Shown here piece by piece: positions 2 to 3,669 of a DNA stretch of 64,000 nucleotides (positions within the stretch are counted from its first letter, which is position 1; every line of letters begins with the position of its first letter). Below the pieces are notes generated by a model, which saw only the letters and a list, made by a program, of their open reading frames with translations, did no database searches and was not told where the DNA came from. Source of the stretch: Blattabacterium cuenoti (lineage in GTDB: Bacteria; Bacteroidota; Bacteroidia; Flavobacteriales; Blattabacteriaceae); the NCBI RefSeq assembly GCF_014251735.1, contig NZ_CP059197.1, positions 62,001 through 126,000 on the forward strand. Reading direction: 5' to 3'. Both the position numbers and the translations under genes were made by a program.

Positions 2-1438
2 TCATACATTGTATGGAGTATAAAATATAGGCCTGTCAAATGGAATGAAGTTATTGGACAAATGGATATTACAACCATTTTAAAAAATTCCATAGAAAAA
101 AATCGTTTGTCTCAAATTTTATTATTTTTGGGACCTAGAGGAGTAGGAAAAAACACCTGTGCACGAATTTTGGCTAATGAATTAAATTCTTTTTCAAATA
201 TTTTTGAAATAAGTGGATTTTTGAATCATTCAGTGGAATCTATATGTAAAACAATCCATAAAATTCGTTCATATCCAAAAAACGGAAAATATAATATTCT
301 TATTATAAATGATTTTCACTTCATCCCTCAAGATTCTTTTAATATAATTTTGAAAATTATAGAAAAACCTCCTTCACATGTATTATTGATTTTCTGTACA
401 ACAGAAAAAAATAAAATTTTTTCTATTATTTCACGTTGTCAAGTCTATGAATTTAGACATATTTCTTTAAGAGATATTTTTTTTTACTTAAAAAAAATAG
501 CGAAAAAAGAACGTATAGAAATAGATAATGAGGCTTTGTTTATTATTTCAAAAAATGGGAATGGTTCACTTAGTGAAGCGCTTAATACTTTCGAGAAACT
601 TACATTTTATGACCAAAAAAAAATTTCTAGAGAATTAGTTATGGAAAAATTAGGAATTCTGGATACTGGTTACTATTTTAAAATAATTGATTATTTATTG
701 AATCAAAAAATATCTCATGTCTTAATTTTATTAGATAAAATTTTTCAATCCGGAGTAAGTTCTATTAATTTCATAGGTGGATTAACTAAACATTTTAGAG
801 ATCTATTGTTATCGAAAAATACTGAAACTTTATTCCTTTTAAAATTAAAAAAGAAAACTATACAATTTTATATACAACAGTCCAGAAAAATATGTTCTTC
901 TTTTTTAATTAATGCTTTGAAAATTTGTCGTCAGATGGAAAAAGAATCTATAATATATAATAATTCTAGATTAACAATAGAAATATATCTGATACAATTA
1001 GCCAATTGTCTATGTACTTATCCTAAAGATTCTGATGAGAATCATGAAAAAAAAGTTCAATATTTACAAGAAAACTGGATAAATTTCATCCAAAAATTTT
1101 CTGAAAAAATTCATCCTACTTATTTAAATTCACTCAAACATGAAATACAATTTCATATTGATAAAAATCAAATACTTCTAGTCATTCCATCCCAATTAGA
1201 AACTCGTAATTTTTCTTTTATACAAACACATTTTATAAAATATTTCAGAAATAAATTTCCACATTTAGAATTAAAAATTCTAGTAAAAGAAAAAGATTTG
1301 GAAAATTTTCCAATAGAACAATACAATTCTTTATCCAGAAAGAATAAGTGTGTAGATAAATTAATAGAAAGATTAAATTTGAAAATTTTATCTTCTATTC
1401 CAACTAAATTTTACGATAAAAAAATATCCTTATCGTAA
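2..1438 (+). CDS. dnaX: DNA polymerase III clamp-loader subunit gamma/tau (DnaX), 5' partial
   Basis: This is the clamp-loader AAA+ subunit, which loads the sliding clamp at the replication fork. The reading frame is open from base 2. The 20 codons before the first ATG at 62 read as a DnaX N-terminus (KYRP at 23-34, then a VIGQ motif), so the true start lies left of the window. Counting from the ATG, the P-loop is at residues 24-31 (GPRGVGKN), the Walker B position at 81-84 (IIND), and the SRC arginine-finger motif is kept at 124-126. Three ATP-site residues differ from the family: Asn for Thr/Ser after the P-loop Lys, ND for DE in Walker B, and Ser171 where sensor 2 normally has Arg. The zinc-binding cysteine cluster of other DnaX proteins is absent. 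The C-terminal part is poorly conserved. Identity is secure; ATPase activity is doubtful. Confidence 0.93.
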   Translation, partial: SYIVWSIKYRPVKWNEVIGQMDITTILKNSIEKNRLSQILLFLGPRGVGKNTCARILANELNSFSNIFEISGFLNHSVESICKTIHKIRSYPKNGKYNILIINDFHFIPQDSFNIILKIIEKPPSHVLLIFCTTEKNKIFSIISRCQVYEFRHISLRDIFFYLKKIAKKERIEIDNEALFIISKNGNGSLSEALNTFEKLTFYDQKKISRELVMEKLGILDTGYYFKIIDYLLNQKISHVLILLDKIFQSGVSSINFIGGLTKHFRDLLLSKNTETLFLLKLKKKTIQFYIQQSRKICSSFLINALKICRQMEKESIIYNNSRLTIEIYLIQLANCLCTYPKDSDENHEKKVQYLQENWINFIQKFSEKIHPTYLNSLKHEIQFHIDKNQILLVIPSQLETRNFSFIQTHFIKYFRNKFPHLELKILVKEKDLENFPIEQYNSLSRKNKCVDKLIERLNLKILSSIPTKFYDKKISLS

Positions 1439-1530: not shown

Positions 1531-3669
1531 ATGATTCATAATTGGTTATCCTTTTTTACAAATGAAAAAAAATATTTCTTTTTCTTAAAAAGAAGAATTT
1601 TTTTTTCTTCTGCTTATTCAGATGAAGATATTGAAAATGATAGTTCCACATCTTATGGATCTGGTGGAAGTGGAGCGGGATCTAGTTATTATGGAGGTGC
1701 TTCAATAAGAAGTAAAACACCAGTATTAGATAATTTTGGAAGAGATCTAAATGCCATAGCTATTCAAGGAAAATTAGATCCTGTAGTGGGTAGAGACAAA
1801 GAAGTAGAAAGGGTATCTCAAATACTGAGTAGAAGAAAAAAAAATAATCCCCTTCTCATAGGAGAACCAGGAGTTGGAAAGTCTGCTATAGCTGAAGGAT
1901 TAGCATTACGTATTGTACAAAGGAAAGTATCTAGAGTTTTATATAATAAAAGAGTAGTTGTTTTAGATTTGGCTAGTCTAGTAGCCGGAACTAAATATAG
2001 GGGGCAATTTGAGGAAAGGATGAAAGCAATCATAAATGAATCCGAGAAAAATACAGATTTAATTCTTTTTATCGATGAAATTCATACTATGATTGGAGCT
2101 GGAGGGACAACAGGTTCATTAGATGCTTCTAATATATTCAAACCTGCTTTGGCTAGGGGAGATATTCAATGTATTGGAGCTACTACATTAAATGAATATA
2201 GACAATATATAGAAAAAGATGGAGCATTAGAACGTAGATTTCAAAAAATTATCGTACAACCCTCTTCGGAAGAAGAAACTATTGAAATTTTGAAAAAAAT
2301 AAAAGGAAGATATGAAAGTCATCATAATGTGATTTATACAGAAGAAGCAATAAAGGCTTGTGTTCATTTAACTGGACGATATATTGTAGATCGTTATTTT
2401 CCTGATAAAGCTATTGATGCATTAGATGAGGCAGGATCTCGTGTACACATTAAAAATATTAAAGTTCCACAAGAAATAGTCCTTCTAGAAAAAGAATTGG
2501 AAAATATTCGTGAAGAAAAATCTCAAGTAGTTAAAAGTCAAAAATATGAAGAAGCTGCACGTCTCCGTGATACGGAAAAACGTATAGAAAAACAATTAAT
2601 ACAAGCACAAAAAGTTTGGGAAGAGTCTTCTAAAGAAAATAGAGAAACAGTTTCTGAAGAAAACGTAGAAGAAGTCGTCTCCATGATGAGCGGAGTTCCG
2701 GTGAATAGAATAGCTCAAGCTGAAATGAAAAAGTTGAATAAAATGATAGATATTCTAAAAGAAAAAATAATCGGACAAGATGAAGCTGTGGAAAAAATAG
2801 TGAAAGCAGTTCAAAGAAATAGAACAGGATTAAAAGATCCTAATTGTCCTATAGGATCTTTCATTTTTTTAGGACAAACAGGTGTAGGGAAAACTTATTT
2901 AGCAAAAGTTTTTGCTAAGGAATTATTTGATTCAGAAGAATCATTAGTACGTATAGATATGAGTGAATATATGGAAAAATTTTCTGTTTCAAGATTAATA
3001 GGAGCCCCTCCTGGCTATGTCGGTTACGAAGAAGGAGGACAACTAACAGAAATTATACGTCGTAGGCCTTATTCTGTCATTTTACTAGATGAAATAGAAA
3101 AAGCACATCCTGAAGTATTTAATGTCCTATTACAAATGTTGGATTATGGATGTGTAACAGATAGTCTTGGAAGAAAAGTAAACTTTAAAAATACCGTAAT
3201 CATTTTTACCTCAAATACAGAAATACAAAAATTAAAAGAATTTGGTCAGGAGATTGGTTTTTATACTCAGGCTAGAAAATCGAATAATTATAAAAACATT
3301 TTAGAACATGCTTTGAAACGTACTTTTTCTCCAGAATTTTTAAATAGAATAGATGATATTATCCTTTTTCATTCTTTAAAACCAGAGCATATATCTAAAA
3401 TAACTCATATAGAATTAGAAAAAATAAATACTCATATATCTAATTTAGGATATCAATTAATATTGCTTCCTGAAGTAAAACATTTTATTGAAAAAAAAGG
3501 GTTTGATAAAGAATATGGAGCTCGTCCATTAAAAAGAGTTATAGAAAAATTCATAAAAAATCCTATATCGGAATGTATCATTAGTGAAACCTTAAAAAAA
3601 GGAGATCAAATTACATTGAAAATGAATGAAAAAAAAGATGGGGTACAAGTTTTTATTCAAAAATCATAG
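1531..3669 (+). CDS. clpC: ClpC-type AAA+ unfoldase lacking the N-terminal domain
   Basis: This is an Hsp100 ATPase that unfolds substrates and feeds them to ClpP. It has both AAA+ modules: Walker A1 GEPGVGKS and Walker B1 FIDEIHT, then Walker A2 GQTGVGKT and Walker B2 LLDEIEK. A UVR-type middle segment (around residues 312-345, ending AARLRD) marks ClpC rather than ClpB. An IGF tripeptide near residue 574 sits where the ClpP-docking loop belongs, so protease partnership looks retained. Normal ClpC is about 820-850 residues; this one is 712. The missing part is the N-terminal double Clp_N repeat. After 26 lysine- and aromatic-rich residues the protein enters directly the acidic, Gly/Ser-rich linker that precedes module D1. 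ATG 1531 is the only in-frame ATG before D1. dnaX ends 92 bases upstream, leaving no room for a longer gene. Confidence 0.95.
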   Translation: MIHNWLSFFTNEKKYFFFLKRRIFFSSAYSDEDIENDSSTSYGSGGSGAGSSYYGGASIRSKTPVLDNFGRDLNAIAIQGKLDPVVGRDKEVERVSQILSRRKKNNPLLIGEPGVGKSAIAEGLALRIVQRKVSRVLYNKRVVVLDLASLVAGTKYRGQFEERMKAIINESEKNTDLILFIDEIHTMIGAGGTTGSLDASNIFKPALARGDIQCIGATTLNEYRQYIEKDGALERRFQKIIVQPSSEEETIEILKKIKGRYESHHNVIYTEEAIKACVHLTGRYIVDRYFPDKAIDALDEAGSRVHIKNIKVPQEIVLLEKELENIREEKSQVVKSQKYEEAARLRDTEKRIEKQLIQAQKVWEESSKENRETVSEENVEEVVSMMSGVPVNRIAQAEMKKLNKMIDILKEKIIGQDEAVEKIVKAVQRNRTGLKDPNCPIGSFIFLGQTGVGKTYLAKVFAKELFDSEESLVRIDMSEYMEKFSVSRLIGAPPGYVGYEEGGQLTEIIRRRPYSVILLDEIEKAHPEVFNVLLQMLDYGCVTDSLGRKVNFKNTVIIFTSNTEIQKLKEFGQEIGFYTQARKSNNYKNILEHALKRTFSPEFLNRIDDIILFHSLKPEHISKITHIELEKINTHISNLGYQLILLPEVKHFIEKKGFDKEYGARPLKRVIEKFIKNPISECIISETLKKGDQITLKMNEKKDGVQVFIQKS

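Follow-up and report, generated by a model that had tools for sequence, protein, structure and literature searches.

The window analysed, a stretch of 64,000 nucleotides from Blattabacterium cuenoti, opens with dnaX, the gene for the DNA polymerase III gamma/tau subunit (positions 2..1438, + strand). Its frame shows no break from the window start to the stop codon at 1436-1438, as a first-pass annotation of this DNA had described, and its 5' end lies about 14 bases outside the window (the full frame was read in locus L115). The predicted product is laid out as an AAA+ domain, lid, domain III, linker and C-terminal domain. Besides the open reading frame and the purifying selection described below, the assignment to the dnaX family is based on the Pfam domains DNA_pol3_delta2, AAA, DNA_pol3_gamma3 and DNAX_ATPase_lid, on a TIGR02397 score of 262.6 bits (cut-off 250) and on PDB sequence matches, the best of which are E. 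coli gamma/tau (tau, E 9e-31). The window genome is a single contig of 642,499 bp, in which the local gene order is sucC-like, dnaX, clpC and nth-like, the two outer names being given by sequence appearance. The next gene, clpC (1531..3669, + strand), served as internal control and synteny anchor. A second, active dnaX copy in the window genome was considered and rejected, as the remaining matches are short and look like ATPases of the RuvB and Clp types; a scan of the collection with the window's DnaX matched just three distant Bacteroidetes loci. The 3' part of the gene (1028..1435, + strand) encodes the linker and a C-terminal domain modelled as alpha/beta with moderate confidence and a low-confidence tail. 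The domain is retained across the genus and conserved in most of it, and gave no Pfam match to the tau C-terminal domain family. The linker contains a run of eight A (1047..1054, + strand).

The ATP site of the window's DnaX departs from the canonical form at three places named in the first-pass annotation, all of which we confirmed in the window sequence. The Walker A motif GPRGVGKNT (131..157, + strand) retains its Lys at 149-151, and the Mg-liganding Thr is replaced by Asn (AAC, 152-154) at the end of GPRGVGKN (131-154). The Walker B motif reads IIND (302..313, + strand), with Asn (308-310) and Asp (311-313), codons AAT GAT, in place of the Asp-Glu pair. The sensor-2 region GSLSEAL (563-583) carries Ser (AGT; 572..574, + strand) at the position of E. 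coli R215. The catalytic signature of GK[T/S], DE and a sensor-2 Arg is therefore missing from this protein. A further change was read from the sequence at 245..247 (+ strand), where Cys occupies the position equivalent to E. coli gamma Arg105, a residue invariant in E. coli and in the 22 free-living relatives compared below. The sensor-1 Thr (E. coli T157; 401..403, + strand) is present, and so is the SRC arginine-finger motif (431..439, + strand), as the first-pass annotation had noted. In the adjacent clpC the Walker motifs are canonical (A: GEPGVGKS, GQTGVGKT; B: FIDEIH, LLDEIE), and the ATP-site change is thus specific to DnaX. Compared with E. coli DnaX (PDB 1jr3, 3glf, 8gj0), the window's protein shares the fold, the domain order, the P-loop backbone with its Lys and the SRC motif, whereas the Walker A Thr, the Walker B Asp-Glu and the sensor-2 Arg are all replaced and the zinc-module cysteines are missing; the latter are missing too in many free-living relatives of the same order.

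We compared 49 genomes of the genus, 46 of which gave an alignable DnaX, with 22 free-living relatives of the same order, using E. coli numbering. This alignment, proposed in the first-pass annotation as a check, showed the changes to be genus-wide. Position T52 is Asn in 41, Ser in four and His in one of the 46 proteins; D126 is kept in 1/46 and E127 in 7/46, and the sensor-2 R215 in none, whereas all 22 free-living relatives are canonical (GKT, DE, R). K51 is kept in all 46. The sensor-1 Thr is present in about half of the genus, and the finger R169 is kept in 27 proteins and lost in 19. Among 73 columns invariant in the free-living relatives and E. coli, G45, G48, G50, K51 and A55 are conserved throughout the genus, while T52, D126, R215 and R105 have been replaced in all or nearly all of its members, Arg105 without exception. 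This pattern indicates that the phosphate-binding loop of the genus DnaX is maintained despite the loss of the predicted Mg ligands and of the sensor. Because the changes recur across the genus and every free-living relative is canonical, they cannot be put down to chance or sequencing error; an assembly artefact was likewise dismissed for changes common to 46 genomes. Exchange of the Walker A Ser/Thr for Asn, as in Ras S17N, weakens the binding of Mg and of the triphosphate, which offers an analogy for DnaX. The comparison strongly supports the reduced ATP hydrolysis that the first-pass annotation had suggested, and as far as sequences can tell the ATPase activity has probably been lost. With the P-loop intact and the Mg ligands and sensor-2 Arg lost, DnaX may bind nucleotide but would hardly hydrolyse it.

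The predicted structures are consistent with retention of the AAA+ fold. We modelled the window's DnaX and that of a genome without dnaN (G017) with AlphaFold2, reaching mean pLDDT values of 79 and 76, with pLDDT of about 90 over most of residues 10-340 in the former. The AAA+ fold with lid and the oligomerisation domain III is present in the predicted model. As both models match E. coli gamma/tau best (E 1.6e-21 in Foldseek for the window's protein), the fold appears to be retained, which tells nothing about catalysis.

E. coli delta' and yeast Rfc5 are AAA+ subunits of the clamp-loader fold that do not hydrolyse ATP. The DnaX of the genus resembles them in fold, in a potential structural role and in its predicted lack of hydrolysis, but theirs adjoin active ATPase subunits in one pentamer, and none was found here. 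Neither holA (delta) nor holB (delta') was detected in any of the 49 genomes with curated or custom profiles, so that, unlike E. coli DnaX, the protein stands without recognisable delta or delta' partners. The curated HolA model, which recovers holA at 219-270 bits in 15 of 16 order relatives, matched nothing in the genus but dnaX and some short, weak stretches, and a profile built from seven HolA proteins of order relatives gave no credible match in the 49 genomes. The HolB model and a profile from ten relatives retrieved nothing beyond dnaX, ATPases of the Clp/RuvB type and a single marginal stretch. None of these weak matches was accepted as a diverged delta or delta' gene, for each turned out to be dnaX itself, ClpC or a short, marginal stretch. 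Such searches cannot prove that a strongly diverged homologue is missing, though the same means do find DnaX. The delta and delta' genes of a clamp-loader complex were thus not recognised in any of the genomes, and hence there appears to be no other clamp-loader subunit to take over hydrolysis. This contradicts the earlier proposal that hydrolysis had moved to another subunit. The loss of catalytic residues with SRC kept in the window genome would suit a DnaX that lends structure or an arginine finger to a working loader in which hydrolysis occurs elsewhere. We regard this reading as highly improbable, given a second clamp-loader gene in 0/49 genomes, the finger lost in 19 of 46 proteins and the loss of the clamp-binding motif from DnaE.

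That motif, QxxLF/QxxMF, occurs at one shared place in DnaE of eight of nine free-living relatives (the ninth has PPDLFG) and was found in 0/19 genus genomes checked, the window genome included; apart from this, the DnaE frame is long and uninterrupted in each of the 28 genomes searched. A DnaE1 without a recognisable clamp-binding motif has been described in five Bacteroidetes sequences, and the authors asked how such enzymes achieve processivity, leaving this as an open question (PMC3919608). The case is alike in that the sole replicative polymerase has lost the motif, but the passage in question names no species and draws no link to the clamp loader. The clamp gene itself, dnaN, was found in 41 of 49 genomes, among them the window genome. 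With a genus-made DnaN profile it was absent from G063, G010, G029, G026, G017, G020, G021 and G009, and its frames were broken in G064, G018 and G002. Poor sensitivity was rejected as the cause of the absences, since the synteny also shows them: in five dnaN-less genomes read, a tRNA and pheT (names by appearance) adjoin directly, dnaN being cleanly missing. A sliding clamp together with a polymerase carrying the motif to bind it was not found (dnaN lost in 8/49 genomes, the DnaE motif in 19/19). The eight dnaN-less genomes group together in a FastTree tree of trimmed DnaE, in which some deep nodes are weakly supported. In published work, dnaN is reported as a pseudogene from one Blattabacterium (PMC6039017), and the authors of the genome paper of 2009 did not find it in strain Bge (PMC2768785).

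In many lineages dnaN is under purifying selection, and some clamp function may therefore persist. DnaX could then handle the clamp independently of ATP or in an ADP-locked state, for example by passively holding or opening DnaN, which would have partners other than DnaE. In favour of this are the intact dnaN of many genomes and the distribution of the finger Arg, found in 27 of 40 aligned DnaX proteins from genomes with dnaN and in 0/6 from genomes without it, which hints at a link, although the pattern could reflect one clade, given the grouping of the dnaN-less genomes. The same counts do not support the suggestion of the first-pass annotation that the protein was kept for its arginine finger. 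Passive clamp handling seems quite unlikely to us, as delta, the known clamp opener, is missing everywhere, DnaE has no clamp motif, one genome (G022) has dnaN without dnaX and five have dnaX without dnaN. Moreover, where the nearest solved clamp (8dt6) has a C-terminal Met-Pro, the genus has Met-Ser: that clamp reads LSMPVI at the place where the genus DnaN ends in a LIMS-type sequence (L172, alignment), the Pro near the binding pocket being replaced in 15/15 aligned sequences.

The dnaX gene was found as a single long open reading frame in 42 of 49 genomes, most of the encoded proteins being 31-60% identical to the window's. It is split in four genomes into pieces of about 370 and 135 aa (397 and 117 aa in one of them), broken to a remnant in G021 and deleted in G020 and G022, where clpC comes straight after sucC and the gap between the two frames is about 770 and 205 bases, respectively. 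Five of the eight dnaN-less genomes keep a single dnaX frame of 462-499 aa. In most close pairs dN/dS is 0.21-0.45 for dnaX against 0.07-0.17 for clpC, and neutral simulations had a median dN/dS of 0.99-1.20 and were stop-free in 0/300 cases, which shows dnaX to be under purifying selection. The two dnaN-less pairs gave 0.47 and 0.78, the latter (bootstrap 0.60-1.03) not clearly different from 1. Relaxation specific to dnaX after loss of dnaN was suggested by these raw values and vanished once they were scaled by dnaE, which also evolves faster in dnaN-less pairs: dN(dnaX)/dN(dnaE) was 2.29 in dnaN-less and 2.09 in dnaN-positive pairs, both from few, non-independent pairs. As the ratio is similar with and without the clamp, we see no evidence that losing the clamp relaxed the constraint on dnaX. 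The alternative that dnaX is simply dying in a shrinking genome, its residue changes being steps to a pseudogene without important function, has some appeal with the gene lost or broken in three genomes and split in four, evolving about twice as fast as dnaE, and with dnaN and the partner genes lost too. We nevertheless consider it unlikely, because one long frame persists in 42 of 49 genomes despite the sequence divergence, dN/dS is well under 1 in nearly all pairs and the P-loop is invariant.

We therefore favour, with moderate confidence, the reading that the ancestor of the genus lost the ATP-driven loading of the clamp and retained DnaX as a protein that no longer hydrolyses ATP, most likely a tau-like replisome scaffold. 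In such a course of events, the ancestor would have lost delta and delta', its DnaE the clamp-binding motif, and its DnaX two Mg-liganding residues (Walker A Thr to Asn, Walker B Asp to Asn or other residues) together with the sensor-2 Arg. This would have left a lone DnaX with the AAA+ fold and a phosphate-binding P-loop with all Gly and the Lys intact, in which nucleotide binding is perhaps retained and hydrolysis hardly occurs. Selection would then keep DnaX for a clamp-independent, non-catalytic role, presumably as a tau-like oligomer keeping the polymerase, and possibly also the helicase, in place at the fork, a role dispensable in some lineages, where the gene was lost. The deletion of dnaX in two genomes, its breakage in one and its splitting in four more indeed indicate that its function is not indispensable. 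Of the roles proposed for the protein in the first-pass annotation, retention for structure is the most plausible, but the structure in question is unlikely to be that of a classical clamp loader, since the partners, the clamp-binding motif of the polymerase and sometimes the clamp itself are gone. A scaffold role is suggested by the roles of DnaX other than clamp loading elsewhere and by the retention of its C-terminal domain. The proposal is weakened by the poor conservation of this domain, where the polymerase contact would be expected, in dnaN-less genomes: identity is about 0.59 among dnaN-positive genomes, and the domain is most diverged in the dnaN-less ones, with a cross identity of 0.29. 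As a tentative extension, DNA polymerase III might replicate the 0.5-0.64 Mb chromosome without a loaded sliding clamp, a nucleotide-locked DnaX having been recruited as the fixed organiser of a clamp-free replisome.

Loss of clamp-loader genes is already known from reduced insect endosymbionts: dnaN, holA, holB and dnaX are absent from Carsonella (PMC2175510), holA, holB and dnaX from Evansia (PMC4122945), and dnaX from Uzinura and Sulcia (PMC3971599; the column order of the table was inferred). These symbionts are alike in having lost clamp-loader genes, and sometimes the clamp, while keeping dnaE. There the genes are simply missing, whereas in the genus studied here, with its larger genomes (0.51-0.64 Mb), an altered dnaX under selection outlasts its partners and even the clamp. 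In the literature consulted we found no account of the altered DnaX ATP site, of the genus-wide absence of delta and delta' or of dnaX without dnaN, although an earlier report of any of these in the study of Blattabacterium gene loss by Kinjo 2021 is possible. The genus adds an unusually readable series of stages to the known erosion of endosymbiont replisomes: among the 49 genomes the partners and the DnaE motif are gone and the DnaX ATP site is altered everywhere examined, the clamp is gone in one group and DnaX in a few. This natural series bears on which replisome parts are needed, on the order of their loss and on the roles of DnaX beyond clamp loading, as well as on the processivity of a DnaE1 without clamp-binding motif, as raised in the part of PMC3919608 considered above. 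Clamp loading, the process concerned, is commonly regarded as an almost universal requirement for replicating chromosomes.

Several further observations were made at dnaX and its neighbour. In G021, the remnant (L132, 2509-3273) is an open frame of 255 aa that covers the lid, domain III and C-terminal domain, the ATPase part being gone. In G026 (L131) no clpC separates dnaX from the next gene, and in G028 clpC lies in two frames. A second Clp ATPase, at G060:C1:62118-63400, is broken by many stops and looks like a pseudogene. In the DnaX linker of the two closest relatives of the window (G066 and G071; L135 and L136), a PIQKKDSEEF-like unit of about ten residues is repeated in tandem several times; this insertion is missing in the window. 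In G023, G003 and G061 (L118, L119, L121) a longer A run, at the place homologous to the A8 run of the window, breaks the frame into a gamma-like short open reading frame and a separate C-terminal one, an arrangement reminiscent of the tau and gamma forms made by slippage in other bacteria.
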